Origin: Acidobacteriota bacterium
Lineage (GTDB): Bacteria; Acidobacteriota; Terriglobia; Acidiferrales; UBA7541
Direction of reading: 5' to 3'
NCBI GenBank assembly: GCA_013286465.1
Contig: JABDFR010000003.1
Coordinates: forward strand, 1 to 64,000
Length of the DNA stretch: 64,000 bases
A program made the position numbers and the translations under genes. Below the pieces are notes generated by a model. It made no database searches. It saw only the letters and a list, made by a program, of their open reading frames with translations, and was not told the DNA's origin. The first letter of the stretch is position 1; every line of letters starts with the position of its first letter. Shown piece by piece: positions 13,892-47,633 of the stretch.

Positions 13892-16273
13892 CTAATTGTG
13901 GCCGCGAACGACGGACCACGGGTCCGGTTTCGCCCACGCCGTAAACTTTGTCACTGAGAACCAGTTCGTAGCGCTGCTCGTGCTCAACTGATAGGCAATG
14001 CGCTCGCCGAGAATGCTCGCGAAGATTTCCATGTCCTCGGTGGCGGGTGACGCCAACGGCCAAGTTCCTATTGACTGCGCGACATTTCCAGGCAGCAGCG
14101 CCGTAAGCTGCAGAGTGCCGCTGCCCTGCGCATTTGCCGTTGCATAACCCACCAAATTACGCCCGCTTAACGGCATGCGACTCAAGAACGCCGTTGTGTA
14201 GTAGGAATTTATGGTAGCGCCGTCGTCAGAAAACAATCCGGGCGTTAAGCCCAAAACCTTGCCCGATGAGGAATTGTTGCCAAAGAAAATCTGATCGGTA
14301 CCATTCGCGCGCTCGATCAAATTGCAGGAATTTGCCGCGATATTCCATTGCGTCCATTTCCGGCCGTGTCCAGGCGAAGTGAGCATCGTGGCTAGCGGAT
14401 CGGTGAATCCCTCGGTGTAGTCAAGGACTAGCACCTGTGATGGTTGCGTCGCAGCGCCCAAGGGAACTCCTACGAGAAGCCGCTTATGTTCTGTGTCGAC
14501 TTGCACCCAGATTCGCGATCCAAACTGCCAGTTAATCGTGTCCCACGTGGGTTGAATTTCCTGTGAGAGCTTGATCGGGTTCCCGCCGTCGAACAGGTAG
14601 AGCCCCGCGCGGCCCGCGATCACCGCCCACTCCTCGCCGATTCCTACACCGTGTACAGACGGCGTCCCAACTTTATTAGAAACTTCCTCCACCGACCAGA
14701 GATCCGGCTCGTTTACTCCGTCGTCGGTGGTGACAAACAGGCTTCGCTCTTTTACCAAGTAGAGATAGTTGCGCAACCTGAATGCGGCTCGAATTCCCTG
14801 CCCGTTGTTTTCCGCCACCTCCATAAGCCCAGTGACACCGTCGTAGCTTTCGGCATTTAACGCTCGCGATCCGCGGATGATAGAGGCGTTCTGTGGTTGC
14901 AGCGTGGGAAATACTTCAATGTTATCGACAAGAAAAGACTCGCCGGTGGGCGAGGGCACACCATCGGCATAAACCCGCAAAACCATGTCGTTTGGAATCG
15001 AAGTTTGCGGCGGAATTAGTTGCGAAATATATTCGACATATCCAGTGGTTGCTTGTAACGCTGTAACTGCGAGCCCCGTGCCAATCGTACCTGCGGTCGG
15101 GCTGAAGCAGTTGATGCGCAAAGTTCCTTGATTGAGATTACCGCTTCGCTTGACTCGTGCACGCACGGAGTAATCGACATTTTGCACGAGGAGCGGATCG
15201 CCGGCCGGGTCTTTCACGGCTGCTTGCGCGATCATCCCCCTAGCGACTGTGTGTCCGTCGCCTGTGATGCGGTAGGCGTCGCCCCAGACGACATCACTCG
15301 ACTCCTGGCTAGCTCCCGCGCCCGACGTCGGATCACGTGTCCAACCCAGCGGACGGCCGTTACCGGTCGAATCCCAACCACCGTCGAAAGTTATGTTTGT
15401 CCAGTTGTCCATCTTCGCGCGCTCGCCCCACCAAAAAAGGCGCTCCGAATAATCGATCACTCCCAGCTGATCTGGAAGTTCGATTTGCGCGAAAAGGTAG
15501 TCCATGCTCACGCCTGATAGCAGAATCGTATCGTCGAAATCAACCGTGAGCGTGGTCGTGCTGTTATCGTTGATGGTCATCGTTGCCGGCACTTGGAAGA
15601 AATCGGCGCCACCTGCACCAGTAAAGCAAAGCAGTCGTTGCACTATATTCGCTGGGCCCGTTGGGATGTTTGTCAGTGTTACCTGTTTTCCGCCCGCAGC
15701 CGTCCAACTTATGGGTGGCGATGGCGCCGTCCAGAACCCTTGCCGTGTTACAAAGACGACGCTGACCTGATGCACACCCGCCGAGATGTTCCCGGCTGCT
15801 GCGGCGTCGGCGGCAGTCGGCCCTTCGCCTGGCCCAACTTGGCTCACGCGATCAAAAAAAATGTCATCGAATTGGCGCGGAAGATCCTGGCCCAGTAGCG
15901 AATCGCTAAAGGCCATATATTCCCGGCCGAAGAGGGTTGTCGAGGCAAGATACTGGTTCGGCGTTCCACCCGCCGCCACAAGTCCGAGAGTTCCTGGAGT
16001 TGTTTCCTTATACAGATTTCCAAGCGAGTCGAAGACGAGCAGCCTGTCGACAAGATTGGCCGTGATGTAAGTCCTCAAGCCGTTCACGCCAACCGCGCCG
16101 CTGAGCGCCGCAAACTGCGACGCGAGTCCAGCGCGCGTGCGAACGCCTCCAGGAAAAAATTCGACGTCCGCGAGACTAGGCGACATCCCAGGCGGAACAT
16201 CGGAGGGATCCAGTAGCGTAATCCAGCCGCCGAACGTATCAAGCGGAATGGGGGCGAAGGTTTCAATAGACAT
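13892..16273 (-). CDS. Large phage tail/head-completion structural protein
   Basis: 793 aa, β-rich throughout, with no signal peptide. The start MSIETFAPIPLDTFGG is followed by DPSDVPPGMSPSLADVEF and FFPGGVRTRAGL. This arrangement resembles the large podovirus-type structural proteins that build the tail tube or hub. Later parts (about 340-470) look like a jelly-roll module, with many Thr/Gly-rich strands and the ERLFWWGERAKMDNWTN segment. It lies between the connector-like protein and the Hint-domain protein in the minus-strand late operon. Exact role within the virion cannot be fixed from sequence alone. The ribosome site is weak. Confidence 0.6.
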   Translation of the reverse strand: MSIETFAPIPLDTFGGWITLLDPSDVPPGMSPSLADVEFFPGGVRTRAGLASQFAALSGAVGVNGLRTYITANLVDRLLVFDSLGNLYKETTPGTLGLVAAGGTPNQYLASTTLFGREYMAFSDSLLGQDLPRQFDDIFFDRVSQVGPGEGPTAADAAAAGNISAGVHQVSVVFVTRQGFWTAPSPPISWTAAGGKQVTLTNIPTGPANIVQRLLCFTGAGGADFFQVPATMTINDNSTTTLTVDFDDTILLSGVSMDYLFAQIELPDQLGVIDYSERLFWWGERAKMDNWTNITFDGGWDSTGNGRPLGWTRDPTSGAGASQESSDVVWGDAYRITGDGHTVARGMIAQAAVKDPAGDPLLVQNVDYSVRARVKRSGNLNQGTLRINCFSPTAGTIGTGLAVTALQATTGYVEYISQLIPPQTSIPNDMVLRVYADGVPSPTGESFLVDNIEVFPTLQPQNASIIRGSRALNAESYDGVTGLMEVAENNGQGIRAAFRLRNYLYLVKERSLFVTTDDGVNEPDLWSVEEVSNKVGTPSVHGVGIGEEWAVIAGRAGLYLFDGGNPIKLSQEIQPTWDTINWQFGSRIWVQVDTEHKRLLVGVPLGAATQPSQVLVLDYTEGFTDPLATMLTSPGHGRKWTQWNIAANSCNLIERANGTDQIFFGNNSSSGKVLGLTPGLFSDDGATINSYYTTAFLSRMPLSGRNLVGYATANAQGSGTLQLTALLPGNVAQSIGTWPLASPATEDMEIFASILGERIAYQLSTSSATNWFSVTKFTAWAKPDPWSVVRGHN

Positions 16274-16633
16274 AGATTTGGTTTTCGTCGGCGATTGGTT
16301 GCGAACGCGTGTTTGGACCCCTCCGCGCGTCCGACAGTTCGTCCGCCAAGAGATTTGGCAATTAAATACAGATTAGTTGATCATCGAAAAGTGCTCGCGT
16401 GCCGCCATCGCGACTATTGTTTGTCGCGCCAAAACTTTCCGTTCGACAGGGGCTTGGAAATAACTTGGAATTCAGAATCCGAGACGAACTCCGCTCAGGA
16501 CATCGCGAACGCGGGCGGCTATGCTATCATCACACGCTTACGTTTCGTCGCTGCACGCAACCTGTATGCCAATTTGCGAATCGAAAAGCTTGGGATTCGG
16601 ATCGTTAACTCCGTTAAGAGACGAGGGCTCCGA
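16274..16633. other. Divergent intergenic region
   Basis: 360 bp between the minus-strand tail gene and the plus-strand NHL gene. It must hold the promoter of the NHL gene and possibly one for the downstream half of the late operon. I see no strong hairpin, direct repeat or consensus -35/-10 pair. Confidence 0.4.
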
Positions 16634-18709
16634 ATGCGGCAATTTTTCTTGGGCTGCGCGCTGATTGTGTTATGCGCGTTGCCGTTCCGGTTAAAGCGCG
16701 TAGAGGCCGGCGCAGGAATCGACGAGGCCTCAAGTAAAGTTCGGACCGTAGCCCGCGGCGTAGCCACCGGCGGCATAGCTACGGATTTCGCCGATAGAAT
16801 CTATTTCTCCGCCAACAATCGAGTTTATCGAATTTCGCCTGACTTGCGCATTGGTGCCAATGGTCGGGCGATATCAAGCGACGGGCTTGACGCTATTGCT
16901 GGTTCCGGCGAGCGTGGATCGCTGGGTGATGGTGGACCGGCGATTTTGGCGCAACTTGACTTGTCGACCGCGGGTGCTTCAACTCCGGCCTCTGCGAAAG
17001 GAAATCTCGCCAGCGACATCTCCGGGAATCTTTTTCTTGCAGACACTCTAAATGACACTGTTCGTCGCATTGACGCGGACTCGCAGTTGATTTCCAGCGT
17101 CGCTGGACGTTGGGGTTCTGGGAACTTGTCCGCAACATCCTCCGAACAAATTTTACGTCCGGCAGCGGTGGCCGTGGATGTCTCGGGGAACGTCTATATC
17201 GTTGGCAACGACCAACTATGGCGACTGGATCCATCGGGCTCACTGTCGCAACTCGCCAATGTAGTTGATCCAGTGGCATTTGCGGTCTCGCGCGACGGAG
17301 ATTCTATTGCCGTCGCGACCCGAGGCGGTGAAATGTTTGTCGTATTTGAGCGTTCGACGCCGGGCCACTATCAAGCGGCATTTACCTGGCCCGCCACTAA
17401 TCAAGAAACCCTCGGCGACGAACTTGCCGTCGGCCAAGCCGATAACCAAGGCGAACCGGCTTCTCGTGCGAGCAGATACTCAGGGCTGGCATTCGACGCC
17501 TCCGGCAAGATTTTCGCCGCTAAAGGAAATGGAAATATTATCGAGCGGTTTGATTTCAAGGCGCCTGCTCACGCGACGATTGCCGGCAACGGACGCGCCG
17601 GGTACTCCGGTGACGAAGGTGCGCCGTTGGAGGCAGAGTTTAATGCCCCTGGCGCACTCGCAATTGATCGCGATGGCAATCTATTAATAGCCGACACCGG
17701 CAATCTTGCCATTCGCGAGATCACCCATGCCGCCGCAGTCGCTGGAGTCACGCTCACTCCCAACACCTTTACGTTTTCGAATGAGCCAACGGGAGGCTCC
17801 AGCGCGCCGGAAGTCTTTACGCTAGCGAACAATTCGTCGGTGCAAGTCACCGGTATCGCCATCGATTTCACCGGCACGGCAACGCCGCCGGATTTCACGC
17901 AGACGAGCACCTGCGCCACCACGCTCGACGCCGGATCGAGTTGCACGATTAGCGTCGTATTTTCGCCGCAGGCAACAGGCAATCGCTCCGCGGCCTTGCA
18001 TGTCGCGGACAGTGACCCCACGAGTCCTCAAACCGCGGCACTTTCTGGGTTTGCGGATGACTACGAGCTGGCGCTGCAATCCGGAAACACAGACACTTTG
18101 ACCATAGTCCAGGGCGGTACGGCTAACTACAATCTGGCGGTGGTCCCAGACAACTCGTTCTCCGGTACTGTTACGGTCCAATGTCCTGTGGGATTACCGC
18201 TCGACGTATCCTGCGGATTAGCCACTGGAACGGCATCCGGCTCGTCCGGCGGGGCTAGTGGTTCGAGTGGGTCAACCACTCTGGCGCTAACAGTTGCACC
18301 AGGAGCGCCACAGAATTTCACGTTGGCGTTGTCGACGATGGCGAAAAATCAGGACACGCTATCGCCACGAGTGTTACGACGGCCAAGATCCTCAGGTCCG
18401 GAACTCGGACTCGCAATTCTGGGAACCGTGGCTGCGCTATTCAGTGCCTTGCGAGTTCGCAATCGGCGAAGTCGATCCCGTTGGCGGCCAATCGCGATGT
18501 CCTCTTTGCGATTTCGGGCGCTAGGGCTGGTAGTGGCGATCACCACTCTAATTTTTGCCGCCACGGGGTGCGGAGGTAGCGGCACACCAACATTGATCCA
18601 GAAACCAAATCCTGGCACACCGGCAGGAACATATCACTTCAATGTCATCGGCGCTTCACAGGGAGCGTCGCGCGCGTTCACGATTACACTAATCGTCCAG
18701 AGCCCGTAG
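16634..18709 (+). CDS. Exported NHL-repeat/choice-of-anchor-D protein inserted in the phage block
   Basis: 691 aa from the ATG at 16634, which opens a signal peptide (MRQFFLGCALIVLCALPF); the open frame upstream of it is non-coding-like. Residues about 40-370 contain NHL/β-propeller repeats, such as DISGNLFLADTLNDTVRRID, VDVSGNVYIVGNDQLWRLD and IDRDGNLLIADTGNLAIREI. A choice-of-anchor D β-sandwich follows (FTFSNEPTGGSSAPEVFTLANNSS to TAALSGFA). The end carries two hydrophobic segments separated by a basic RNRRSRSRWR stretch and a final PAGTYHFNVIG…TITLIVQSP strand motif. It is plus-strand and convergent with the head-tail connector gene. It is probably host-derived cargo with a cell-surface or extracellular role; the ligand is unknown. 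Confidence 0.75.
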   Translation: MRQFFLGCALIVLCALPFRLKRVEAGAGIDEASSKVRTVARGVATGGIATDFADRIYFSANNRVYRISPDLRIGANGRAISSDGLDAIAGSGERGSLGDGGPAILAQLDLSTAGASTPASAKGNLASDISGNLFLADTLNDTVRRIDADSQLISSVAGRWGSGNLSATSSEQILRPAAVAVDVSGNVYIVGNDQLWRLDPSGSLSQLANVVDPVAFAVSRDGDSIAVATRGGEMFVVFERSTPGHYQAAFTWPATNQETLGDELAVGQADNQGEPASRASRYSGLAFDASGKIFAAKGNGNIIERFDFKAPAHATIAGNGRAGYSGDEGAPLEAEFNAPGALAIDRDGNLLIADTGNLAIREITHAAAVAGVTLTPNTFTFSNEPTGGSSAPEVFTLANNSSVQVTGIAIDFTGTATPPDFTQTSTCATTLDAGSSCTISVVFSPQATGNRSAALHVADSDPTSPQTAALSGFADDYELALQSGNTDTLTIVQGGTANYNLAVVPDNSFSGTVTVQCPVGLPLDVSCGLATGTASGSSGGASGSSGSTTLALTVAPGAPQNFTLALSTMAKNQDTLSPRVLRRPRSSGPELGLAILGTVAALFSALRVRNRRSRSRWRPIAMSSLRFRALGLVVAITTLIFAATGCGGSGTPTLIQKPNPGTPAGTYHFNVIGASQGASRAFTITLIVQSP

Positions 18710-18755: not shown

Positions 18756-19457
18756 CTAGAGATAGATTACTCGGCGGTGGAAACTATATGGCTTCCGCCT
18801 CCGTGCTTTGAATTGCTCAGGACGAATGTAACGCTCAATTAGCTTTTCGGTTGCCTCCATCGCAGTCGTTTGCATGTCGGCGGCCAGAGCGCGCGCGCCT
18901 CGTGCTCTGGCCGCCACCGCCGCCGTGGCGTACGCGAGTGCGTCGTTCGATGCGCGAATCAGTATTGGATCCGTGCCGAGAACCAATTGCGGCAGAACTT
19001 TCTCATAACGCAGACGTACCGTGACCTCGGAAGTCGCGCCGAGCAGCTGAATTGTGTCCTCCCGCCACTCCCACATCCGAAGGAACGAACCCGGCTGAAG
19101 ATTTGGCAGACCGCTCACGATCTTTTCCATCGGAACAAACAAATCGCTCGACCCTGACTGGTGCTCCCATAGTTGATGCGGCACCATCAGATCGGTCGGC
19201 AGTTGAGGCGTGGAAGTGTCTGTCAGCTCCGTGGCAGTAAGGCCGCTCGTCAGCGGAAGATCAAGATCAACTTGTGAGACTAAGACTGAAACGCCAGCTT
19301 CGGCGAGTTCGCGTTGCAGCGCGCGATAGGCCGAATTCAACAGCGGCATCAGCGTCCCGTCGTTGAACACGGAGCCGGCGGCATCGTTGATCAGTGCGCG
19401 CGTAAGATTCAACGCCGTCTCGGTCTGGTCGTACGCAGTAGTGGATAGTACCGGCAT
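18756..19457 (-). CDS. Phage head-tail connector/adaptor-like protein
   Basis: 233 aa from the ATG at 19457, chosen because GAGGGAAACC precedes it; 16 extra residues are possible from 19505. The body is helical with a central β part. LNLTRALINDAAGSVFNDGTLMPLLNSAYRALQ resembles the N-terminal helices of phage DUF-type connector proteins that probe a DNA end or portal ring, and QLPTDLMVPHQLWE and WEWREDTIQLLGATSEVTVRLRYE follow. The C-terminal helix (ALAYATAAVAARARGARALAADM) and a basic tail end the protein. It lies upstream of the large tail gene in the late operon, the usual connector position once the NHL insertion is ignored. Confidence 0.6.
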   Translation of the reverse strand: MPVLSTTAYDQTETALNLTRALINDAAGSVFNDGTLMPLLNSAYRALQRELAEAGVSVLVSQVDLDLPLTSGLTATELTDTSTPQLPTDLMVPHQLWEHQSGSSDLFVPMEKIVSGLPNLQPGSFLRMWEWREDTIQLLGATSEVTVRLRYEKVLPQLVLGTDPILIRASNDALAYATAAVAARARGARALAADMQTTAMEATEKLIERYIRPEQFKARRRKPYSFHRRVIYL

Positions 19458-19581
19458 GGTTTCCCTCGTAAATCGCGATGTGAGTCGCCCTGCGAGCGCC
19501 AGCAATCGAGCCGATTATCGTCACCGGCTCAACCAAATGCTTAATTCGCTTCATTCTTGCCGAGCCGCCGACACGCCACTG

Positions 19582-19854
19582 CTATGAAGAAATTGTTGGC
19601 TGTTGAGGCTCATCTACGACTGGCAATGGTGATTGCCGCAGGTATAGGGCTACGCCCAGGATCGCGCTGATAGCCGCACTGACCCCGCCAATGGTCAGGG
19701 TATGATGAAAACCGGCATCCAGGTTGAAATGGTTCGGATCTATGCCAATTGCAGCGAACCCAGTTACGACTCCGTTAGCTCCGCCGGAAACGCCCGCCGC
19801 GATAATTCCGCGAATCCAAATTTCCCATTTCGCGAGAGTGTTTGAACGGCGCAT
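19582..19854 (-). CDS. Small two-helix membrane protein (holin-like)
   Basis: 90 aa with hydrophobic segments at about 13-37 (IWIRGIIAAGVSGGANGVVTGFAAIG) and 49-70 (LTIGGVSAAISAILGVALYL). They are separated by a short polar loop (DPNHFNLDAG), with a Pro/Gln-rich soluble tail. Two membrane helices and this length fit small phage holins. It is distant from the lytic transglycosylase (11 kb downstream), so another membrane role is possible. It lies between the tailspike and connector genes. Confidence 0.5.
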   Translation of the reverse strand: MRRSNTLAKWEIWIRGIIAAGVSGGANGVVTGFAAIGIDPNHFNLDAGFHHTLTIGGVSAAISAILGVALYLRQSPLPVVDEPQQPTISS

Positions 19855-19940: not shown

Positions 19941-22900
19941 TTAATAAAGCGCAATGAAAACGTTGGCATACGTACCGCCCACGCTGCTCGGTTGCCCGAA
20001 ACTCGGTACGCTGATGCTCGCCGGAAGCGCCCCACCAGTTGAACTCGTACCCGATGTCGCTGAAGAGAGCTGCACAAAGCCACCGTTGCCCGCTGTGCCA
20101 AAATAAATTTTCGCGGTCGTAGCATTGCCAGTGAACGCGAAAATGTAATATCCGGGCGTTAGCGTCACAGTACCTTGCGCGCAAGCCACCGACGTTAACC
20201 CCCCGGATGAGAATGCAGTCGCGCCCCAGTCGCAGAGCCGCGAGCCACTCATGTTGTAGATCCCCACGTCGTAGCAATCGGCAAAGCTGCCACACAGAGA
20301 GCCCGCGGTAGTGTCCGGCGTCGCAATGTCAATCGTCATGTGCCCAAACTGGACTTGCATCGGCACGAGAAATGCTACGACATTGATCGCATTCGCACCG
20401 GATGGCCCAGTGTTCTGGCCGGCGCCGTTCGCCCCAGGAACAAACGCGGTGAGCGCGCTTCCACCCCCACTGCCGCACGCAGCTCCGGCATCTTGCAGCA
20501 ATCCTGCCGTTCCCCACTTTGCGCAGTTGCCGCTGGTCGGCGAGCCGCTGTAGTACGGAACAGTCCCGCCATTCGGATTAGTCGTGTTACCAGCAAATGT
20601 GTAGAACGGCGCGAGAGTCTGGTTAGTGAGAAGCGCAGATCCCGAACCGCTCGGCGTTCCTCCGACATCAGTAAAGGAGAGGTGTGACGGACAAGAATTA
20701 ATCTGATAGTACGGCGTCCCGCCCTGATAAGTGCCACCGGCTGTCGTGGACCGAAAGACGTAACAACTTCCAGGATTCGTGCCGCCAGGCGCGCCCCAGC
20801 TGAGACTGACGGCGTTGTTCGAGCCAGTTAGAGTGGCTGAGATTTCGCTCGAAGCGGCCGATACATTCGAGGTCGACGCTGATCCCGCCTCGATGCTGTA
20901 GTAATAAGTTCCATTGGCCAGTGTGCCGCCGGTGGTGGGCGTACCAGCTAAGCCCGAGGGCGCAATCGCTTGGGCGAGGCTCAAGGCGACGCTGTCACTC
21001 GCACTTCGATTCAGCCCGGATTCGAACCCCGGATGCGTGCCGTCGCCCCACATCAAACCGGCGACAGGGTTGAGTGCCATACTTCGCTGCGAATTTCCGG
21101 ATTGCGTGAACGCGACCGGCGGACCATGGATATTTCCGAAACAGCCCGCGCAAGTCGAGTTTCCGTTTCCTATTTGAGTCTCCAGCAACGTACCCTGATT
21201 CTTGGTAATGAAGTCCACGCCCTGATTGTGATGAATCTCGACATTTCCCAGCGGATTTCCACTACCGTCCACAACCGCGCCTGCAGCCTCAAGGTAAACG
21301 CTATCAAGACTGCCGTTAAGAACCTGGACGGCGTTGAATATATTGCTGCCGATGCAGCCGCTTACTTGCTCGATGTGGATGGAATTGAATTCGGCTGGCG
21401 CATTGAGAACGATAAACGGACTATTGCTCACGCAGTCGTACTGAAAATCCTGTTTAAAAATAAGGTCTGAAAACAAAGTAAACGAATGACCGCCACTATT
21501 TGTCACTGTGAAGAAGGGGTTGCCATTGTTCTCCTGCTGATCGTTCTCGAAATCTAGCGTCCCCTCGCTGACCGAAGTATTGGTGCGATTGTCCACCAGG
21601 TAGTAGGAACTCGAAAGTATGTTGCGCATCACTCCGATTCCGCCACCGGGCTGACTCGCGCTACCGACGTAAGCGAGCACCATAGCGGGCTGGTTCGTCG
21701 CGCTTCCGTTTGTATTGAGCGCCCCATTTTCGAACCACCACCAAAACGTGTTGTAGATAGCGAGCGGCGTGTTGTCAACGGTATCGACCAGTGGTCCACT
21801 TTTGTTGGCGACGCCCATCTCCACATTGAAAAATGTCGGGCTATTCGTCGAAAAAACCTGCACCGCTTGATTGTTTCCCTGAATCGCGAGATCGCGAAAT
21901 GCGACCGGGGAAGCGGACCCGGTGTTTGTCAATAAAAACACGGGAGCGAGATTCGCACTGGTTGACCCGACACCAACCCGCGTCAGCGGCGGGCGTGAGA
22001 ATTGCGGCCCATTCCCCCCAAATGAGCCCCCGCCCTGAAATGTCAGTCCAATGCAGCCCGGCGGAATATAGATGGGCGCCAAATTCACCTGCCCGCCGCT
22101 CGACGATGTATTGGCGGCCGTGAGTGCAAACGTGAATTGCGTCGAACTGCCAACAGTCGCGATCAGCCACGTTCCATTAAACAAATCGTTGGCCACGCCG
22201 CTAATGATCACTGGAAAATTCGTTGTGTACGCCGTTGGAAGCGTTCCTCCGCTCACGGTCACCGTGACGACGTTGCTCGTGAGGGTGATCGAGTTAATGG
22301 TCAGTGCGTTCGGTAATGTCATCGCATAGATAGGATTTGCGCCGGATGCCGGCGGGAAGAAAACTGTGCCTCCTCCGGTCGAACTGGTGCACGCGGCGTT
22401 GATCGCCGCTTGAATCGCAGCTGTATCGTCCGCAACTCCGTTTCCTTGTGCGTTGTACGGCGGCGCAGTCACGTCGATCCACGGTCGGGGGCCGGCGTGA
22501 CTCTCACTTCCGCTCACACTAAGCGACCCAGTGCTTATGCTCGACGGATTAAATACTCCCGCGCTGAGCGTGCCTGTTACGCTCGCATTACCGCCAACCG
22601 TGATATTTCCCCCAAGCGCTATCGATGTCGCTGTCACGGAATTGAAGGAAGGAGTCGATGGGTCATTCGGCAGGATTGTGTCCTTAATCGTGTAGGGATT
22701 GATGCCGTTACCCGACACCTGCACGACGTACCGCCCTGGCGTAGCGTAAAAGTGATAGTTCCCCAGACCGTCAGCCTGCAGAGGATTTGGAGCTGGCACC
22801 GTAAGAGTGGCGTCCGTATACAGCGCGGCGAGCGGCGAGCACGGCGTTCCCGCCGCACCGCTCGTGCAGACTGTCACGGTCGCTCCGGCCAGCGGCCGGC

Positions 22901-23030
22901 CGTTGGCGCCGAAGGCGATGTCATCTTTCCGGGATCCTTGCGCGAACGTCAGCGGCGCGCTAATCACCAGGAGTGCGATGACAAATACGGACCGAACAAT
23001 GCTACGGCCGGACTTTTGATTCGACATCAT
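19941..23030 (-). CDS. Large tailspike-like protein with pectate-lyase fold and signal peptide
   Basis: 1029 aa. Unusually for a virion protein it opens with a Sec signal (MMSNQKSGRSIVRSVFVIALLVISAPLTFAQ). Residues about 35-110 form a domain of phage-fibre type (GANGRPLAGATVTVC… NPLQADGLGNYHFYATPGRYVVQVSG). A low-complexity T/S/G region precedes a pectate-lyase/β-helix entry motif, PPYNAQGNGVADDTAAIQAAINAAC (from about 185), and a long right-handed β-helix-like body with turn motifs. A fibronectin-like module lies near 690-800, and the last 180 residues are Ser/Gly-rich β-strands. β-helix tailspikes usually bind or cut surface polysaccharide. The signal peptide suggests instead, or as well, a secreted protein. 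It is between capsid-side genes and the holin-like gene. Confidence 0.7.
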   Translation of the reverse strand: MMSNQKSGRSIVRSVFVIALLVISAPLTFAQGSRKDDIAFGANGRPLAGATVTVCTSGAAGTPCSPLAALYTDATLTVPAPNPLQADGLGNYHFYATPGRYVVQVSGNGINPYTIKDTILPNDPSTPSFNSVTATSIALGGNITVGGNASVTGTLSAGVFNPSSISTGSLSVSGSESHAGPRPWIDVTAPPYNAQGNGVADDTAAIQAAINAACTSSTGGGTVFFPPASGANPIYAMTLPNALTINSITLTSNVVTVTVSGGTLPTAYTTNFPVIISGVANDLFNGTWLIATVGSSTQFTFALTAANTSSSGGQVNLAPIYIPPGCIGLTFQGGGSFGGNGPQFSRPPLTRVGVGSTSANLAPVFLLTNTGSASPVAFRDLAIQGNNQAVQVFSTNSPTFFNVEMGVANKSGPLVDTVDNTPLAIYNTFWWWFENGALNTNGSATNQPAMVLAYVGSASQPGGGIGVMRNILSSSYYLVDNRTNTSVSEGTLDFENDQQENNGNPFFTVTNSGGHSFTLFSDLIFKQDFQYDCVSNSPFIVLNAPAEFNSIHIEQVSGCIGSNIFNAVQVLNGSLDSVYLEAAGAVVDGSGNPLGNVEIHHNQGVDFITKNQGTLLETQIGNGNSTCAGCFGNIHGPPVAFTQSGNSQRSMALNPVAGLMWGDGTHPGFESGLNRSASDSVALSLAQAIAPSGLAGTPTTGGTLANGTYYYSIEAGSASTSNVSAASSEISATLTGSNNAVSLSWGAPGGTNPGSCYVFRSTTAGGTYQGGTPYYQINSCPSHLSFTDVGGTPSGSGSALLTNQTLAPFYTFAGNTTNPNGGTVPYYSGSPTSGNCAKWGTAGLLQDAGAACGSGGGSALTAFVPGANGAGQNTGPSGANAINVVAFLVPMQVQFGHMTIDIATPDTTAGSLCGSFADCYDVGIYNMSGSRLCDWGATAFSSGGLTSVACAQGTVTLTPGYYIFAFTGNATTAKIYFGTAGNGGFVQLSSATSGTSSTGGALPASISVPSFGQPSSVGGTYANVFIALY

Positions 23031-23173: not shown

Positions 23174-23866
23174 TTACGTCGTTTCCTCACCGTGCTTTCG
23201 ACGAATTCCGTGTTTCGCGGCTTTTTCGGGATCCAAAACAGCCTTGCAATGTTTACAGACCGCGACCTGAGGCTTCACCTTCTCCCCGCAAACTGGGCAC
23301 TCGATCAGTTTCTGCGGAACGAAAGCCCAATCTCGCTCGACACCCAGCGAGAGCGCCGCTCGACGGTGCATATCAGAAATTTCACGATAAGAATGCCCTC
23401 GCGCCCACATCGTATCGCCCTCGGCTACAAGCTGTTGATACCATTCCAAACGCGTCGCCTGTGCCGTCGCAATCTCGTCTTCACTCGGACGCGCCCCCGC
23501 GCTAACGAAAATGCCATGCGGCTCGAGATCCTGTATGAGATCAGCCGCAATTTCGCGAGCGGAAATAGTGAATGGGAATCGGCGGTTGTCACCTAGGTCG
23601 AGAGCGTCGCCTCGATTCGTGATCAGCAGAATTGCATAAAGCTCGCCTTTCGGGCACGCCGGAATATGAAATATGCCGTACGTGCGCGAGATGTAGAAGT
23701 CTTGATCACTCAGGTTCACGATCGAGACGGTAGCTTCGCGCGATTCACCGGTGGATATCGTCGGTACGGAAATCAGACATCGTCGATCAGTGTCATGGAT
23801 ATTGGAGGCCAAGAGTTCTCCTGGAGGTTGCTGATTTTGATACCATCGCGCCTTAAGCCCGCTCAA
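23174..23866 (-). CDS. Phage-region protein with C-terminal zinc ribbon
   Basis: 230 aa beginning at a TTG (23866), the first possible start after a stop in frame. The N-terminal 120 residues are β-rich (TVSIVNLSDQDFYISRTYGIFHIPACPKGE), ending in a helical region (IATAQATRLEWYQQLVAEGD). The C-terminus has CPVCGEKVKPQVAVCKHC, a two-CxxC zinc ribbon, with a basic tail (RRKHGEETT). The family is not recognised. It lies downstream of the capsid gene and is probably a minor virion or accessory protein. Confidence 0.6.
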   Translation of the reverse strand: MSGLKARWYQNQQPPGELLASNIHDTDRRCLISVPTISTGESREATVSIVNLSDQDFYISRTYGIFHIPACPKGELYAILLITNRGDALDLGDNRRFPFTISAREIAADLIQDLEPHGIFVSAGARPSEDEIATAQATRLEWYQQLVAEGDTMWARGHSYREISDMHRRAALSLGVERDWAFVPQKLIECPVCGEKVKPQVAVCKHCKAVLDPEKAAKHGIRRKHGEETT

Positions 23867-24031: not shown

Positions 24032-24631
24032 TTATCCCTGCGGCGCAGCAACGAAGGGCTGGTCGTGGAATGCCGGCACGGCGTCATCGAGAATGTCGTC
24101 AGCGCGCTTTTCCCAGCACTGATCGTTTCGAACTTCGCGACTTTTTAGAGCTTGGCGGGCTTCGCGTCCTGGTTGACGGCGGGCCCATTCAATTGCTCGG
24201 ACGGCGTTGTCACACGCATTTGCGTCGAGTGCTATGAATTCCCCGTGTGGACCAGCCAGCGTGAAGCAATGCTCATACTCCCCGCGGGACGGGTACGGAC
24301 CGAGCGCTGGGATCAGAATGCCATCCGCTCGCTCGACCGTGAGCGCTCGCCAAGTCTCAGGCGTGCCATAAGTTTCAGGCGCGAGCCAACGCTCGATATG
24401 CCAACGATTTTGCGGCAGATATTTCGGCTCGCGGCGGAGTTCAATGGTTTCCCGAACGATGTTTCCGCTCGCATCACGGTCCGTCCATCTTCCGCCAATC
24501 CAACTGAGCCGCGACCATCCCCACACTACCCGGAAATTGGGTTCGCCAAATCGATTCCAACCACCCGCCTCCGCCACGCGTTTATCAAGCGCGACAGGTG
24601 CTGTGTGAGTTTCGCGAAGAACTTGGATCAT
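24032..24631 (-). CDS. Hypothetical phage protein, Trp/Arg-rich
   Basis: 199 aa, soluble, rich in Trp, Arg and Glu. Notable are the WNRFGEPNFRVVWGWSRLSW and RWTDRDASGNIVRETIELR stretches, followed by PKYLPQNRWHIERWLAPETYG. Similar aromatic-rich proteins encoded between capsid and tail genes occur in podovirus-like prophages, but no function is known to me. The 26-bp gap to the small virion protein at 24657 indicates co-transcription. No ribosome site is evident before the ATG. Confidence 0.6.
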   Translation of the reverse strand: MIQVLRETHTAPVALDKRVAEAGGWNRFGEPNFRVVWGWSRLSWIGGRWTDRDASGNIVRETIELRREPKYLPQNRWHIERWLAPETYGTPETWRALTVERADGILIPALGPYPSRGEYEHCFTLAGPHGEFIALDANACDNAVRAIEWARRQPGREARQALKSREVRNDQCWEKRADDILDDAVPAFHDQPFVAAPQG

Positions 24632-24656: not shown

Positions 24657-25019
24657 CTATTGCAAACGCAAGAATTGAGCTTGGAACGCGATTACGTCTG
24701 TTGTTACGCTGGATGGGTAAGCTCCGGCTCCTATTTCAGTGCCGCTACCGACGAAACATTTTACTTTCCAGTTGTTGAGCGCATTCCCTTGAACGGATAC
24801 GTAGTAGCCGGCATTTCCATTTTGACTGTCAAACATCACCTGCTGCGGCGGGCTAGCGGCGTCCAGTGCTTGGCCCGATTGGCCGATTTGCTCGATCGCC
24901 GTCGTCCAGTCCAGCGTGTCACCGCCAGTTGCGTAATTCCCCGAAAAGGCGACGGTGCCTGTTACCCACGTCACGATGCCCGAGGCATCAACATTCTGAA
25001 CACTAATCGTGATTGCCAT
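24657..25019 (-). CDS. Small phage structural protein
   Basis: 120 aa from the ATG at 25019, chosen because GGAG lies 6 nt before it and because the upstream part of the frame is low-quality Arg/Ser-rich sequence. β-rich: MAITISVQNVDASGIVTWVTGTVAFSG, then a YYVSVQGNALNNWKVKCFVGSG core and an FQAQFLRLQ end. It lies just after the major capsid gene in transcription order, where capsid-decoration or head-completion proteins are often encoded. A GGGAGG/CCCTCCC hairpin repeat separates it from the capsid gene. Confidence 0.55.
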   Translation of the reverse strand: MAITISVQNVDASGIVTWVTGTVAFSGNYATGGDTLDWTTAIEQIGQSGQALDAASPPQQVMFDSQNGNAGYYVSVQGNALNNWKVKCFVGSGTEIGAGAYPSSVTTDVIAFQAQFLRLQ

Positions 25020-25067
25020 AATTTGCTCCGACTGAGATGTAGGATGGCCAAGCCTGAAAGGAAGTGA

Positions 25068-25100
25068 AGGGGAGGACCTTTCGACCCTCCCGATTTGCGG
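25068..25100. repeat. GGGAGGG-family hairpin repeat, copy 1
   Basis: GGGGAGGACC-TTTCG-ACCCTCCCG followed by ATTTGCGG. It lies between the capsid gene 3' end and the next minus-strand gene. Confidence 0.7.
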
Positions 25101-25206
25101 ATGAGCACGGGCGAACTGGAACATGCAACCCGCGCACGCGACGTCGAACCGATGGGAATCAAAGTCCGCACACGAGTCCGACGCCGGCGCACGCGTCCCG
25201 CGTTTC

Positions 25207-26472
25207 TTAATAGCCGCTAGGAATCGCCAGCGTGTCGATGAACGCTCCGCTTCTCGGACTCTCGTTCCAGACCTGCAGTCCGGTAACGAAGTAAAAGATG
25301 TATGCAGCCGCAAGCCCTCCGCTAGTCCCATAGATCGGGAAAACCGTCTGGCCGCCGACATCGTAGAAGTCGATGTCCTGCATCACCGCCCGGCCCCAGT
25401 GCGACAGATCCAGGAAGTCCACGCGCGTCGAGTTAGCGTTGATCGAAGACTTGATTGGAACGCCAGCCATCGTCTTCTCGCCCGTAAAGAGCAGATCGAC
25501 ATCGCTAGCGCGCCCTCCCGCTCCTTCCTTGATGATTTGCGAGATCGTGACGCCCAGTTGCTCCCAAGCATGCTCTTGCTCGAGCGACGTATACGCGATG
25601 AGCTTCCCAACTTGGCTAGTACCCAAAGCTTTGCGCACCTTGTTGATAGCCAGGCGTACAACTCCCGGCGTGAGTGCCGAGTTATTCCCTGCGACGCGTG
25701 GCGTCGCAAGTTCAACCGGATAAGTGGCGCGGTTAAGATTGAGCCAAGTCCCGGTCGTGGCGTTAGTCTGGTGGTAAAGAATCACAAAGAGTGAAACCGG
25801 CTGCGCTCCGGTCAAGCCGTCGTGTACGATAACGTCGTTTGCGGATGTACCACTAGGAACGTTGTCTACCGTAATCGTCCCCGCAAATGGGTCTACCGCG
25901 GTCACACTCGTGGTAACTCCAGCTGCCACATTGCGGTTGGTAGTAAGCGTCGGATCGTAGACCTGGATTGTCTGGTTGTAGTAAACGAGCACGCTGCCCG
26001 GGGGCTTCGCCATCGTAAAGGTGCTCCCAGAAATGCTCGCAATCGTACCTAAAACCCCATTTCCGTTCGTCTGCATTACCTTATCGAGGAACGCACGGAA
26101 CTGCTGCATGTTGTTCTTCACTTCGCGTTTGGCGGCGTTCTCAATCGCCTTCTCCGGCGAGTTCGACGCGTACTCCACCAACTTCGATATTTCCACCGCG
26201 TGGCGGAAAAAGATGGGCGTCACTTGCGCTACGTCATAAGTCGTTCCCGACCCACGACCCAGATCTCCACCATCGAGGTTGGCCAGGCCCGGCTTGCCTC
26301 CCGGACGGATTTGCAGCGGGAGGCGCATGTTGCGCGAGCTTACGCGCTCCGCATCGCCACGCTGCTGAATCATCGTCAGCAGTATGTCGTCGCGCTCATA
26401 AAGCAGCGGCAACTTGTCGCGGACCTTTTCGAGTTGGAGCGCAACTGTCTGTGCATTTTGCATTTGTGCCAT
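25207..26472 (-). CDS. Major capsid protein (HK97-fold)
   Basis: 421 aa. The N-terminal arm contains the helical LEKVRDKLPLLYERDDILLTMIQQR. This is followed by the GGKPGLANLDGGDLGRGSGTTYDV region, a Ser/Thr β insertion (about 150-240) and a C-terminal axial domain beginning near VRLAINKVRKALGTSQVGKLIAYTSLEQEHAWEQLGV and ending in GTSGGLAAAYIFYFVTGLQVWNESPRSGAFIDTLAIPSGY. Position after the scaffold-like gene and before the small head protein is that of phage capsid genes. There is no protease upstream, so processing is uncertain; scaffold-type assembly is likely. GGGGAG lies upstream of the ATG. The family assignment is by layout and overall character. Confidence 0.75.
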   Translation of the reverse strand: MAQMQNAQTVALQLEKVRDKLPLLYERDDILLTMIQQRGDAERVSSRNMRLPLQIRPGGKPGLANLDGGDLGRGSGTTYDVAQVTPIFFRHAVEISKLVEYASNSPEKAIENAAKREVKNNMQQFRAFLDKVMQTNGNGVLGTIASISGSTFTMAKPPGSVLVYYNQTIQVYDPTLTTNRNVAAGVTTSVTAVDPFAGTITVDNVPSGTSANDVIVHDGLTGAQPVSLFVILYHQTNATTGTWLNLNRATYPVELATPRVAGNNSALTPGVVRLAINKVRKALGTSQVGKLIAYTSLEQEHAWEQLGVTISQIIKEGAGGRASDVDLLFTGEKTMAGVPIKSSINANSTRVDFLDLSHWGRAVMQDIDFYDVGGQTVFPIYGTSGGLAAAYIFYFVTGLQVWNESPRSGAFIDTLAIPSGY

Positions 26473-26926
26473 AGCTTGTAACTCCCCTTGGGTGGATTTT
26501 TAATTGCGGTGGTGTCCTTGACGGATGAGAAGTGATCTATCAAAAATCAGTCGCGGCGAGAGCACGCGCCATCAGACGGCTCACCCTCCTCGGACATTCG
26601 GGCTCGCCGTCCTAGTGGTACGCGAGATATCCGGTGCGATCCGCGCGGTCATTTTCCCGCGCCCTATTGTGTTGAGCGATTACTTACCGGTTTGGCTCGC
26701 ATACCAAGAATTTTCGTCCGAGTCTCGGAATCCTGTTGACGCGGGGTTTCCTTCGCGCTCTGATGCAAGCGTCGAGCTTGTGTCCTGTGCTGAGAGGCAG
26801 TTTCGGCGCCGCGCACTCGGGGCTGCCAAATTCGCCGCAGCGTAGTCTTGGGAATTATGATAGTTTGTGGCAGCACCCGCCGTCCCCGGGCCTGCCACAG
26901 ATGGATATGTGTCGCCCGGAGGGCGT
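26473..26926. other. Divergent region between capsid gene and exported-protein gene
   Basis: 454 bp that must contain promoters for both directions. Short open frames occur but have no gene-like translation. A GGCTCACCCTCC...ATTCGGGCTCGCC stretch near 26578-26610 may be a degenerate piece of the hairpin-repeat family. No consensus promoter was found by eye. Confidence 0.4.
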
Positions 26927-27634
26927 ATGAAGCGAGGTTTCACCCGGTTCGTTCCGCTCGTCGTCTTGGCTATCTCGGCAGTCGCGCTTCCATTGCACGC
27001 CCAAGGCAACGGGAATTTCTGCGGCTCCAGCCAAACGATGGCCGTGAAGTGTTACGTAAGGAATGCCTTAGAAACGAGTACCGTCAATCTACCTTCCGGC
27101 GTGACGACCCAACAATATCAAGCCTATGGCGTCGCCGTTTTGCGGATTTTGCAATCGGGCCACACCTATTTCATGGTCTTGGGTACGTCTGCTGCTATCT
27201 CTGACGCGATGCCACCTGGAAACAGCGATGGGTCAGCAAATCAGGCCGCCCAAGATGCAGCCGTGAATTCAATCGTGGACGCGGCACTAACCAACGGTCT
27301 GATCACATTACCCAGCAACGTCACCGAATCACAGGTCCAGGAATTTGCACGCGACACCACCGACAAGATGGATACGAACGACGGTCCATCGTTCTCACCC
27401 GGGGGCGTCCTTCGCCTAATTGACTCCTACCTCGTCACTTACACCGATTCGAACGGGATCGTGGACTGGACCTCAGTAAACAGCGCCATGAATACCGCCG
27501 TAACCAACATGATCAGCTCCGGGATGGTTAAGATCCCAGCCAGCATGACGGTTGCCCAAATGTCCCAATTCGCGGTCGGAGTCGCCCAGGCTATCGAGAC
27601 TTACAAGACGGCCACAAATCGAAAAAGTTTATAA
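26927..27634 (+). CDS. Small exported protein of unknown function inserted between phage genes
   Basis: 235 aa from the ATG at 26927, preferred because GGAGG lies 4 nt upstream and it opens a signal peptide (MKRGFTRFVPLVVLAISAVALPLHAQ). The mature part has one Cys pair (NFCGSSQTMAVKCYVRNALE). It contains two similar blocks built from a LPSxV motif and helices, beginning VNLPSGVTTQQYQAYGVAVLRIL and ITLPSNVTESQVQEFARDTTDKM, plus a third echo VKIPASMTVAQMSQFAVGVAQAI. So it is an internally repeated helical domain. Family not recognised. It lies on the plus strand, divergent from the capsid gene and convergent with the scaffold gene. Confidence 0.65.
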   Translation: MKRGFTRFVPLVVLAISAVALPLHAQGNGNFCGSSQTMAVKCYVRNALETSTVNLPSGVTTQQYQAYGVAVLRILQSGHTYFMVLGTSAAISDAMPPGNSDGSANQAAQDAAVNSIVDAALTNGLITLPSNVTESQVQEFARDTTDKMDTNDGPSFSPGGVLRLIDSYLVTYTDSNGIVDWTSVNSAMNTAVTNMISSGMVKIPASMTVAQMSQFAVGVAQAIETYKTATNRKSL

Positions 27635-27753: not shown

Positions 27754-28908
27754 TCACATATTCAGGATGTCGTTGTCGCTCATTCTCCGGTAATCGATAT
27801 CCTTCGGCATCAAAGCGCGAGGATTATCTCCACCCGGTGCCCCGCCGGCTATATCTACTCTCTTCGCTGCATTGCGCTGGCGCTCCTGCCGCGTGCTCGC
27901 ATGTGCTACGACTCCGTTAGTCCACTCACTCAGCACTCGTTTTGCAATTCCGGGCAACGCCTGTTTGGCCCGGCCCACCACCATCCCTACAATTGCACGT
28001 TGATTGTCCGCCGTATGTTGGCCGTTTCTAAACGCTTGACGGAGCTGTTGACCAAACGCACGATTTGATTGCAATGAGGCATCGATCGCCCGGTAGATTT
28101 CGCCCGTTAACCTCTGTCGCGTGTTCTTTGGCGTGCCCTCGGGCAGTAGGCGATCGAGCTGTGATTGAATCGAGCTGAGGACGCCTTCGACCGCCGCGGC
28201 GTTAGTTTCGTGAAAGAAAGTATGTTCCTGCGCAGCGTTCATCGACAGATTCTCCTCCGGCTGGTGCAAAGGAGCCCCGTCAGGCGTTGCCAACGATCCG
28301 CCGTTTGTCGACGGTTGCGCTTGGGCAGAATTCCCAAAAGCAGTCGGATCGGCTGGCAGTCGATCTCTCTCCGCAGATGCTGTCATCGCGTTCATCATCT
28401 GCGCCAGGCTTCGGAACGCATTCGGGTTCAATCGATAGATTGCCGCAGCCAGCTCCGCGTGCGATTCCGGCCGGTTGCTGAAGAACAGCGCGTCGATCCG
28501 CGCCAAATCTGCTACTTGGGTGTTCGCGGCGCGCGCATCATCCACGGTCGGGAACAGCTTCTGAATTTCCCGCGCTGATTCTATGTCAGGGAATATCTCT
28601 CGAAACGATTGGGCTTCGCGCCATGCATCGCGAAGCTCAGGGTTCGATTCGAAAATCGCCTGAAATTGCGCCGGCTCAGTTTGCCCCGTGTTTTGTTGCG
28701 TTTCGTTCCCCTGCCCGGGATGATTCACCTCAATGTCAAATACATCCCGGGCTAAGTTATCTGAAGAGGGCGGCGCGATGTGCGTCACAAGACCCAGAAT
28801 CTCGTCATCGCTAGGCCGATACGCAGTTGCGGTAGCAGGTGTGGGCGCCGCTACTTCTACTCGCAATGCTCCAGAATGGGACTGTGCCGGTGTAGTTGCT
28901 GCGTTCAT
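27754..28908 (-). CDS. Phage scaffold-like/head assembly protein
   Basis: 384 aa from the ATG at 28908, chosen because GGAGGGCGG precedes it; 53 extra residues are possible upstream but look non-coding. Acidic, Ala/Gln-rich and almost wholly helical: GLVTHIAPPSSDNLARDVFDIE, then coiled segments ELRDAWREAQSFREIFPDIESAREIQKLFP and EGVLSSIQSQLDRLLPEGTPKN, and a basic C-terminal region (QERQRNAAKRVDIAGG). No Cys. These traits and the position between portal and capsid genes are typical of scaffolding proteins, which bind capsid through a basic C-terminal helix. No catalytic protease triad is visible. Two PilZ genes intervene between it and the portal gene. Confidence 0.65.
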   Translation of the reverse strand: MNAATTPAQSHSGALRVEVAAPTPATATAYRPSDDEILGLVTHIAPPSSDNLARDVFDIEVNHPGQGNETQQNTGQTEPAQFQAIFESNPELRDAWREAQSFREIFPDIESAREIQKLFPTVDDARAANTQVADLARIDALFFSNRPESHAELAAAIYRLNPNAFRSLAQMMNAMTASAERDRLPADPTAFGNSAQAQPSTNGGSLATPDGAPLHQPEENLSMNAAQEHTFFHETNAAAVEGVLSSIQSQLDRLLPEGTPKNTRQRLTGEIYRAIDASLQSNRAFGQQLRQAFRNGQHTADNQRAIVGMVVGRAKQALPGIAKRVLSEWTNGVVAHASTRQERQRNAAKRVDIAGGAPGGDNPRALMPKDIDYRRMSDNDILNM

Positions 28909-28995
28909 ATTTCCGCCCTCCGCCTTGTCGCTTCCCTTCCCAGATGGTTCTCCGCAGGCCCTAACGCTTCTCCTGCTCATGCCGATGTGATTTGT

Positions 28996-29826
28996 GTGTC
29001 TAACTCCGACAAAACCATTCCTGTAACCCCGCACGAACCCCGCGGCGCCGAACGTCGAAAGCATCACCGTGTGAAAGTCTCGCTTCCCGTCCGCATTCGC
29101 GGCGGCATTGGCACCGCCGACCCGTTCGAAGACCTAGTAAAGACGACCGACGTCGCTCGCGAAGGCCTGCTCATCGAAACATCCCGCAGCGGATACTACG
29201 CCGGCCAATCTCTTGAGGTAACTTATCCCTACAGCAATGAAGCCGATGCTATCAATACCCCAAAGCGGGCCACTGTCGTACGTGCCTCTACAACCTCGGC
29301 CTTTGGCTTCGCGGTGGCCCTGAAGATCGAACAAGGCCGAGTAGAGCCAGCGCTAGAAAAACGCGAAAAGTCTCCGTCAGGCGCCCAACGACTCGCCGGG
29401 TCAGTACATGTTCTCGTCGTAGATTCAGACGTCCTCGAGGGCGAAAAACTAAGAATCATGCTTGAAGAGGACGGCTACCTAGTTGCAAGCGCTGCAACCG
29501 CGCAAGCAGCTTTTGACGTAATCAAGTCAGACTCGCCTGACGTAATCGTCTCTGAGGTTGAATGCGGTGAGCCCTCTGGGCATGACCTCTGCGCAATCGT
29601 GAAAAAGAGCGAGCGTCACAAGCACATCCCGGTGATTTTGATGATGCGCTCCGCGTCCCCGGCGGATTACGCAACTAGCCATGAACTGGGTGCTGTGGTT
29701 TGCCTCGCTAAGCCTTTCAAACCAGAGCGCTTACTACACGTAGTGCACTTGGTGGCGCCGCCGCCATCTCAGAGATCAGCCTACAGCGCCCAATTTAATA
29801 TCGCCTCATTCGTCAGGACCGCATAG
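28996..29826 (+). CDS. PilZ-receiver fusion protein (copy A)
   Basis: About 276 aa from the GTG at 28996. The start is uncertain, as no good ribosome site is visible and the longer frame overlaps the scaffold gene. Residues 18-112 are a PilZ-type domain: basic ERRKHHRVKV, then the second motif as DVAREG, in which Ala replaces the usual Ser of DxSxxG. Residues 137-255 are a CheY-like receiver (VHVLVVDSD…AKPF). Position E187 (DVIVSEVECGEPSG) occupies the phospho-acceptor site where Asp is expected. The c-di-GMP motif is therefore imperfect and phosphorylation is unlikely. It ends VAPPPSQRSAY like copy B. Plus-strand within the minus-strand late operon; probably host-derived regulator. A motility, adhesion or polysaccharide role is typical of PilZ. 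Confidence 0.8.
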   Translation: MSNSDKTIPVTPHEPRGAERRKHHRVKVSLPVRIRGGIGTADPFEDLVKTTDVAREGLLIETSRSGYYAGQSLEVTYPYSNEADAINTPKRATVVRASTTSAFGFAVALKIEQGRVEPALEKREKSPSGAQRLAGSVHVLVVDSDVLEGEKLRIMLEEDGYLVASAATAQAAFDVIKSDSPDVIVSEVECGEPSGHDLCAIVKKSERHKHIPVILMMRSASPADYATSHELGAVVCLAKPFKPERLLHVVHLVAPPPSQRSAYSAQFNIASFVRTA

Positions 29827-47619: not shown

Positions 47620-47633
47620 GGTCTCGCGTAAAT

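Follow-up and report, generated by a model that had tools for sequence, protein, structure and literature searches.

Gene for a predicted exported spike

The window analysed here is the whole of a 64,000-nucleotide stretch from a soil bacterium of the Acidobacteriota (assembly GCA_013286465.1, contig JABDFR010000003.1, positions 1 to 64,000). On its minus strand, within a cluster of genes for phage-type packaging, structural, and lysis proteins, lies a gene for a large spike protein that, to judge from its sequence, is very probably the exported tailspike of an endogenised cluster. The gene and its parts are as follows.

19941 to 23030, minus strand: predicted exported tailspike gene, 1,029 residues, ATG start, with Pfam and PHROG matches
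22941 to 23030, minus strand: signal peptide of 30 residues with cleavage at TFA/QGSRKDD, predicted by inspection
22551 to 22940, minus strand: N-terminal domain, residues 1 to 130 of the mature protein, with invariant Cys25 and Cys34 and a fold that would suit the head-binding domain of a podoviral tailspike
21231 to 22484, minus strand: beta-helix with a pectate-lyase-like entry, mature residues ~153 to 570 (Pfam, structure model, and Foldseek)
19944 to 21230, minus strand: C-terminal domains of the spike (structure model), diverging fast

Residues 1 to 30 (MMSNQKSGRSIVRSVFVIALLVISAPLTFA), followed by Q31, have the n-, h-, and c-regions of a signal peptide with small residues at −3 and −1, which marks the spike as a predicted Sec-exported protein. 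The sequence preceding the ATG is gcgaggaagggaatcacgATG, and a purine-rich site (aggaagg) lies a little 5′ of the start codon. The most hydrophobic 11-residue stretch within the first 40 residues of the spike scores 3.16; taken from their called starts, the cluster's other head and tail proteins reach values between −0.5 and 2.0. Also hydrophobic on the minus strand are the spanin (3.49) and a lipoprotein-like protein encoded at 11972 to 13840 (2.97).

The signal is a conserved feature of the family. In 43 of 44 spikes (43 loci plus the window) position −3 is A, V, S, T, G, L, or P and position −1 is A, G, S, or P, with an exact A-x-A before the cleavage site in 23 of the 44; among the first 20 homologues, all 20 have, by eye, a hydrophobic stretch that ends before QG or QS. 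Three of the 46 loci with a spike-domain match (L108, L203, and L210) are weak or partial and were excluded from the 44, and in L210 the signal peptide is absent. When a start codon was sought within 50 codons, L105 had none and L093 had only a GTG, 3 codons before the Q.

A preliminary description of this gene had proposed a Sec signal peptide of 31 residues ending TFA-Q, and had named a downstream start that removes the hydrophobic segment as the case that would overturn it. The hydropathy and the small −3 and −1 residues bear out the signal peptide and its cleavage at TFA/Q, but 30 residues, not 31, precede Q31. The downstream start is excluded because no ATG (ATG only, not GTG or TTG) occurs in the first 60 codons past Q31 and a conserved N-terminal domain starts immediately at the mature end of the signal.

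Fold and cysteine content of the spike

The tailspike architecture suggested earlier, a fibre-type N-terminal domain followed by a pectate-lyase entry, is upheld by domain and fold matches. The entry is placed within residues 171 to 239 by Pfam, PHROGs, and NCBIfam; it comprises a match to PF12708 at residues 192 to 227 (E 5.8e-6, 0.3 bits below the cut-off) and one to PHROG 7458, “tail spike,” at residues 171 to 228 (E 1.7e-4). PF12708 is matched by 15 of 38 spike family members at E 1e-3. An AlphaFold2 model of the mature spike, made from 38 sequences, has a mean pLDDT of 70 and a pTM of 0.51 and is beta-rich, with a beta-helix-like portion at ~153 to 570. Against predicted viral proteins, a whole-spike Foldseek search gave 35 matches at E ≤1e-3, headed by phage pectate-lyase and tailspike-like proteins. 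The spike has the beta-helical body, of receptor-binding or depolymerase type, that is expected of a podoviral tailspike.

The N-terminal part modelled alone (42 sequences) is well predicted over residues 1 to 90, with block means of 87 to 94. Its best solved counterparts include a chain of the podophage Pan3 tail complex (Z 10.2), a chain of the Pam1 tail machine (Z 8.5), the P22 tailspike head-binding domain (Z 8.4), and Sf6 gp14N (Z 8.1), and it matches 47 predicted viral proteins at E ≤1e-3, with phage pectate-lyase or tailspike proteins well represented among them. A PHROG scan of the N-terminal part at E 0.01 returned just families without informative names (10 of 42 and 5 of 42 members). 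The modelled fold is compatible with docking to a particle and is no proof of docking.

The spike is rich in cysteine. Across 20 homologues it carries 1.71 Cys per 100 residues, compared with 0.01 for the capsid protein, 0.00 for the scaffold-like protein, and 0.16 for the adaptor; the portal (0.93) and terminase (1.03) are intermediate, the NHL protein (1.57) and the protein encoded at 10768 (1.52, two homologues) lie near the spike, and the zinc-ribbon protein (3.11) lies above it. The Cys count is even in 32 of 39 complete spikes (binomial p 7e-5, a value that ignores relatedness), and Cys25 and Cys34 in mature numbering are invariant among 42 sequences.

A homologue from Granulicella mallensis serves as a single control: it starts MSGIRYDG, has no signal peptide, contains 1 Cys in 693 residues, and is 31% identical to the window's spike over 123 residues of the N-terminal part. 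Tailspikes normally assemble in the cytoplasm. This and the signal-less Granulicella homologue favor dual or failed export, whereby the signal would be weak, a cytoplasmic share would be assembled normally, and the exported share would be a by-product or a form of regulation. However, the signal is kept in nearly all homologues of several genera and in phage records, and Cys counts are mostly even, so we consider this explanation very unlikely. In G. mallensis X5P3 (L229, L210, and L230), the related structural cluster that carries the signal-less spike adjoins host genes by eye. A G. mallensis region, possibly this one, has been assigned to prophage cluster 140 (PMC5900883).

Virion cluster around the spike

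The genes on either side of the spike in the window are listed below.

4385 to 6022, plus strand: NAD+ synthase, conserved host flank (the true frame; an overlapping ORF [open reading frame] at 4375 is spurious)
6057 to 6959, plus strand: DsbA/DsbC-like thioredoxin protein, conserved host flank, from the flank comparison
7086 to 7889, minus strand: Rz-like spanin (phrog_4349, E 5.9e-4)
8157 to 8612, minus strand: endolysin or transglycosylase (phrog_669, E 1.6e-9)
9061 to 9630, 9740 to 10144, and 10768 to 11796, minus strand: further conserved cluster genes, recurring in relatives
13892 to 16273, minus strand: virion structural protein (phrog_3287, E 6.7e-6)
16295 to 18709, plus strand: NHL/Ig-like protein, on the opposite strand within the cluster (domain scan)
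18756 to 19505, minus strand: head-tail adaptor (SU10_adaptor; Pfam; 18 of 20 loci)
19582 to 19854, minus strand: small holin-like protein, putative function (12 of 20 loci)
23174 to 23866, minus strand: conserved zinc-ribbon protein (Pfam; recurring in relatives)
24032 to 24631, minus strand: conserved cluster protein with no assigned role, recurring in relatives
24657 to 25361, minus strand: small conserved protein; the called start overlaps the capsid gene, and the true start is probably later
25207 to 26472, minus strand: major capsid protein (phrog_14242, E 8e-7; 46 of 201 genomes)
26867 to 27634, plus strand: predicted exported protein with a signal-like start, on the opposite strand within the cluster
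27754 to 29067, minus strand: scaffold-like protein, assigned from position
28780 to 29826 and 29978 to 30862, plus strand: PilZ and response-regulator proteins, on the opposite strand within the cluster (domain scan)
30923 to 33427, minus strand: portal-like protein, assigned from position and size, with no Pfam or PHROG match
33990 to 35771, minus strand: terminase large subunit (phrog_979, E 6.3e-38)

The N-terminal 158 residues of the spike have matches in 36 of 101 related genomes, and 20-kb stretches around 20 of these matches were compared. Virion genes surround the spike in 18 of the 20 loci, 17 of them with the capsid gene and one on a contig that starts too late; the two remaining loci both belong to genus g12. 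The spike gene thus lies inside a virion module, as does that of a podoviral tailspike. Furthermore, distances between N-terminal domains correlate with those between capsid proteins (r 0.847, 39 loci; 0 of 2,000 permutations as high). This recurrence in the structural cluster and the divergence in step with the capsid lead us to reject the idea, raised in the preliminary description, that the spike is carried as cargo. Membership of a lysis cassette is not claimed: in genus g6 the spike is apart from the holin-like gene, which it adjoins in the window and in several loci.

The capsid protein defines a wider set of 80 loci, 27 from IMG/VR (one of which, L110, is matched over 18 residues only) and 53 from named genomes. 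All 53 of the latter are from Acidobacteriota, mostly Candidatus Acidiferrales or metagenome-assembled genomes of subdivision 2, and Candidatus Acidiferrum typicum UBA7541 is among them. The spike N-terminal domain is found in 46 of the 80 loci. In ORF lists of 18 loci, L173, L199, and L207 have other large proteins with signal-like starts past the capsid gene.

Several further features of these clusters were observed. In genus g3 a second spike-domain gene, 39 to 40% identical to the first, lies ~15 to 17 kb downstream of it (L118, 7858 to 10947, in G015; G003:C23:7775). The PilZ and response-regulator pair recurs within the cluster in genera g1, g3, and g4 and may represent c-di-GMP-linked regulators of the cluster. 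Two host-type genes, the NHL/Ig-like one and that for the small protein with a signal-like start at 26867 to 27634, recur in the clusters of some relatives, and the lipoprotein-like gene (LLCGCGGG) is unmatched in the loci of 20 relatives. The cluster-flanking host gene at 6057 to 6959 is DsbA/DsbC-like and stands beside a Cys-rich, predicted exported spike, which may be coincidence.

Endogenisation, inheritance, and selection

Of 201 genomes searched, 46 have a capsid match, and all but two of these 46 belong to the family of the window; most have a single locus. A minority of the matches are split or truncated, and one has a stop. By hand count, 28 of 101 genomes have both capsid and spike, 8 have the spike only, 6 have the capsid only, and 59 have neither (Fisher 3e-12 for co-occurrence, a value affected by relatedness and incomplete genomes).

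The flanks of the cluster were compared in 10 genomes besides that of the window. The shared chromosomal neighbours are NuoI upstream, with YpdA, ParB, ParA, and MiaB beyond it where the stretch reached them, and the DsbA-like gene and NAD synthase (NadE) downstream. Both flanks are shared by the window genome and 6 of the 10 (five of genus g6 and one of g11), and one flank is found in two more, G005 (g5), where the contig ends, and G032 (g4). On the window's contig the downstream flank genes lie at 4385 to 6959 and NuoI lies ~33 kb upstream of the terminase gene, past the window end, with Lgt, thioesterase, and outer-membrane genes in between. Three consecutive large CarboxypepD_reg/outer-membrane-barrel genes (43570 to 55393, minus strand) are located between the cluster and the conserved upstream host genes.

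Capsid and RpoB trees of 24 genomes have 10 of 21 splits in common, compared with at most 4 in 2,000 permutations of the labels. The common splits include each of the five multi-member genera, plus g3 with g4 and g5 with g6; the trees disagree in within-genus order, in the root, and in a long G011 branch. Capsid distances average 1.46 times those of RpoB (Pearson 0.64). For the portal protein (15 genomes), 7 of 12 splits are common with RpoB, compared with at most 3 in 5,000 permutations. Purifying selection acts on the cluster: in five close genome pairs (a sixth was left out, lacking a second locus), the ratio of nonsynonymous to synonymous rates (dN/dS) is 0.009 to 0.20 for cluster genes and 0.009 to 0.074 for the capsid gene. 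With Pfam and PHROGs, the scanned cluster ORFs yielded genes for packaging, structure, and lysis but none for an integrase or for replication.

An ordinary, recently integrated prophage distributed by repeated infection is one possible account of the cluster. The 27 IMG/VR loci that match the capsid would fit it, with host flank genes seen in none of their stretches compared, and other acidobacterial regions have been called prophages by Eichorst et al. 2018 (PMC5900883). Against it are the same host flanks across genera, the genus-level tree agreement, the slow capsid evolution, and the failure to find integrase or replication genes among the scanned cluster ORFs, and we regard it as highly improbable. 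The cluster is better described, at the level of sequence, as a putative endogenised, vertically inherited, gene-transfer-agent-like element of the family Candidatus Acidiferrales. This accords with the domesticated setting that had been envisaged for the spike. As gene transfer agents are defined in PMC9662315, the cluster has the sequence-level features: Caudoviricete-derived proteins, endogenisation as judged by conserved flanks, and co-diversification with the host within family f1, though not in two genomes outside it. The published definition also includes the packaging and delivery of mostly random host DNA and the incomplete packaging of the agent's own genome. A separate observation is that many contigs called viral in IMG/VR (L084 to L109) carry the module that is found endogenised in bacterial genomes.

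Selection differs along the spike. In the five pairs, dN/dS is 0.22 to 1.1 over the 30 codons before the Q, 0.025 to 0.05 over the next 130 residues (94 to 98.5% identical), and 0.05 to 0.32 over the remainder (45 to 90% identical). A signal that drifts but stays hydrophobic, a domain under capsid-like constraint, and a rapidly changing distal part form the pattern that an exported receptor-binding spike should have. Receptor-binding architecture, export, and a variable distal part could also be expected of a surface decoy or exclusion factor, an exported spike that would attach to the polysaccharide of the producing cell and keep particles from re-adsorbing or relatives from infecting. The cleavage site has no lipobox, however, no anchor was noticed, and nothing in the present analysis points to this role specifically; it is the least probable of the explanations weighed here.

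Phage relatives with the same spike

A comparison of the whole spike with viral contigs gave no match. The N-terminal profile found at least 37 IMG/VR loci, of which 8 are distant (L260 to L267). All 8 distant spikes have signal-like N-termini (hydropathy 2.46 to 2.95), 7 of the 8 have an even Cys count past residue 25, and the capsid family is present in 4 of the 8 records. One record, G206 (L260; 43.8 kb), encodes a terminase, DNA polymerase A, SNF2 helicase, dCMP deaminase, and Prim-Pol by Pfam, and its close relative G207 (L261; 45 kb) has similar ORFs by eye. The signal-bearing protein is the sole large spike candidate noticed in the ORF lists of these two phages. The integrase family PF00589 was found in none of the 8 distant records, G206 and G207 included; it occurs in five whole bacterial genomes, which is uninformative on the cluster. 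A tblastn comparison with 50,697 GenBank phages gave no match at an E limit of 0.01 for the window's capsid protein or the N-terminal part of its spike, and none at an E limit of 0.001 for the spike or capsid protein of G207.

Since an environmental phage with replication genes and its relative carry the signal-bearing spike, export predates domestication. It follows that export alone is no sign of exaptation. With the same signal present in related phages, it may be that certain phage-like particles are fitted with previously secreted spikes.

Other signal-like starts were seen in these genomes. Between terminase and portal, G206 and G207 encode a protein of 290 to 300 residues with such a start (L275, 1475 to 2347; L277, 3710 to 4612), L198 has a large one before the portal gene, and the structural regions of L264 (3543 to 12013) and L266 (9767 to 14715) have about five and two, respectively. 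Such runs raise the possibility that export of fibre-like proteins is common in these phages.

Spike beside polysaccharide genes in genus g12

In genus g12 the spike domain and the capsid gene are on different contigs where both are found, and the spike adjoins polysaccharide genes in all four loci (L050, L051, L284, and L285; neighbours called by Pfam in the first two and by blastp to L050 in the others). All four have glycosyltransferase genes and three a flippase gene, with an FkbM methyltransferase also near the spike in L050. Three of the loci have a conserved protein without a Pfam match that is ligase- or polymerase-like by size and position only. The 97%-complete genome G012 has no capsid match and just an interrupted portal piece, and it keeps an exported spike gene; the spike can therefore have a role of its own. 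It seems, from gene neighbourhoods, that g12 has undergone a second exaptation step in which the spike became a protein of a host exopolysaccharide locus. The earlier suggestion of a secreted polysaccharide-active protein exapted from a phage thus holds in part: it suits g12, where the spike stands beside polysaccharide-synthesis genes, but not the window, where it stands among virion genes.

These loci also favor the main rival explanation, that the spike is purely a soluble exported depolymerase, made together with particles and never mounted on them. Acting at lysis or ahead of it, the enzyme would loosen the exopolysaccharide of the producer and so free the particles, or it would remodel the colony matrix. 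Besides the g12 neighbours and the G012 spike, it draws on phage L260, in which the spike directly follows a peptidase M15 endolysin gene, and on the precedent of Pantoea WceF, which is an exported enzyme with a tailspike fold and a Tat signal, encoded in an exopolysaccharide cluster (PMC7949094). It leaves unexplained why capsid-like constraint falls on the N-terminal domain rather than on the enzyme part and why that domain resembles tailspike head-binding domains, and no other large spike was noticed in the related phages. We regard it as rather unlikely.

Proposed route and its weighing

Our preferred explanation as a whole is that of a Sec-exported spike of podoviral type that is oxidised, docks at lysis, and also acts as a free enzyme; we hold it at slightly less than even confidence. 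The spike would cross the inner membrane via Sec and lose its signal peptide, and disulfides would form within the periplasm. The lysis genes of the cluster would then open the cell, so that particles leaving the cytoplasm encounter the completed spikes and bind them by way of the conserved N-terminal domain. Surplus spike would serve as a free enzyme on the surrounding exopolysaccharide; the fast-changing distal part would set the polysaccharide bound, and the tip would evolve with it. The P22 tailspike is the last to join and can join finished heads in vitro. Docking of the spike to the particle after export is, taken by itself, a plausible but somewhat doubtful step. That environmental phages and a gene-transfer-agent-like element share a new assembly route, in which the spike is exported, oxidised, and mounted only after lysis, we put forward tentatively, as a proposal with considerable doubt attached.

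A number of observations weigh against the exported, docked spike of an endogenised element. The best whole-spike Foldseek match among solved structures is a phage tailspike, but a weak one (E 6.5e-4, TM 0.12 to 0.16), and the N-terminal model resembles carboxypeptidase transthyretin-like domains (Z 8.2 to 8.4) and other bacterial proteins (Z 8.5 to 8.8) about as closely as it does P22. The spike domain is missing from 34 of the 80 capsid loci, several of them cut contigs, and no large exported ORF was seen in the long downstream stretches of L098, L192, and L205. Patterns in the N-terminal profile include the Cys motif, so that it favors exported relatives. On the side of inheritance, G015 (g3) and G030 (g12) have the flanks on neither side within the stretches compared, one of the 7 common portal splits has a support of 1 in the portal tree, and G061 and G164, both outside the family, depart from the host tree in the portal tree. 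The capsid-tree root and the G011 branch, the IMG/VR stretches without host flanks, the signal-less Granulicella relative, and the spike kept in G012 belong here as well.

Comparison with known systems and significance

Like the tailspikes P22 gp9, Sf6 gp14, and LKA1 gp49, the present spike places a pectate-lyase-type beta-helix after an N-terminal domain, here one whose fold would suit head binding, and its gene is in the virion cluster; it differs from them in its conserved Sec-type signal and its many, mostly even, cysteines. To our knowledge, podoviral tailspikes lack a signal peptide. The spike would be a tailspike variant with an added export step.

The closest studied counterpart is TspA of the gene transfer agent RcGTA, the tailspike of a domesticated phage-derived element with an N-terminal beta-sandwich, which is described as degrading biofilm and being loosely attached (PMC13420450, a preprint). 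It belongs to another phylum, tspA is in a separate genome module, and a signal peptide of TspA was not found in the available text of that preprint. Pantoea WceF is similar in being an exported bacterial enzyme of tailspike fold in a polysaccharide cluster, as in g12, and differs in its Tat signal from the window's spike, which lies among virion genes (PMC7949094). Gene transfer agents as described in PMC9662315 are Caudoviricete-derived, endogenised, and co-diversifying with the host, as here, and come from a different phylum. Sec-exported phage endolysins such as Lys44 of fOg44 show a phage protein passing through Sec before lysis, although Lys44 is a lysis enzyme and not a spike (PMC6116005). 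The target proteins of phage diversity-generating retroelements (DGR), reported to be without signal peptides, are an opposite case in another protein class (PMC6199706). Neither a Sec-exported tailspike nor an Acidobacteriota gene transfer agent was among the literature matches listed.

The accepted view is that tailed phages assemble in the cytoplasm. An export signal conserved on phage and domesticated spikes would mean either a virion finished outside the cytoplasm or dedicated soluble phage polysaccharide enzymes, of which the authors of the 2026 preprint know none from phages (PMC13420450). The cluster would also give the Acidobacteriota a candidate gene transfer agent, none from that phylum being among the literature matches listed. 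If the explanation is true, a spike already outside the cytoplasm could pass into a host polysaccharide locus, as may have happened in one genus.

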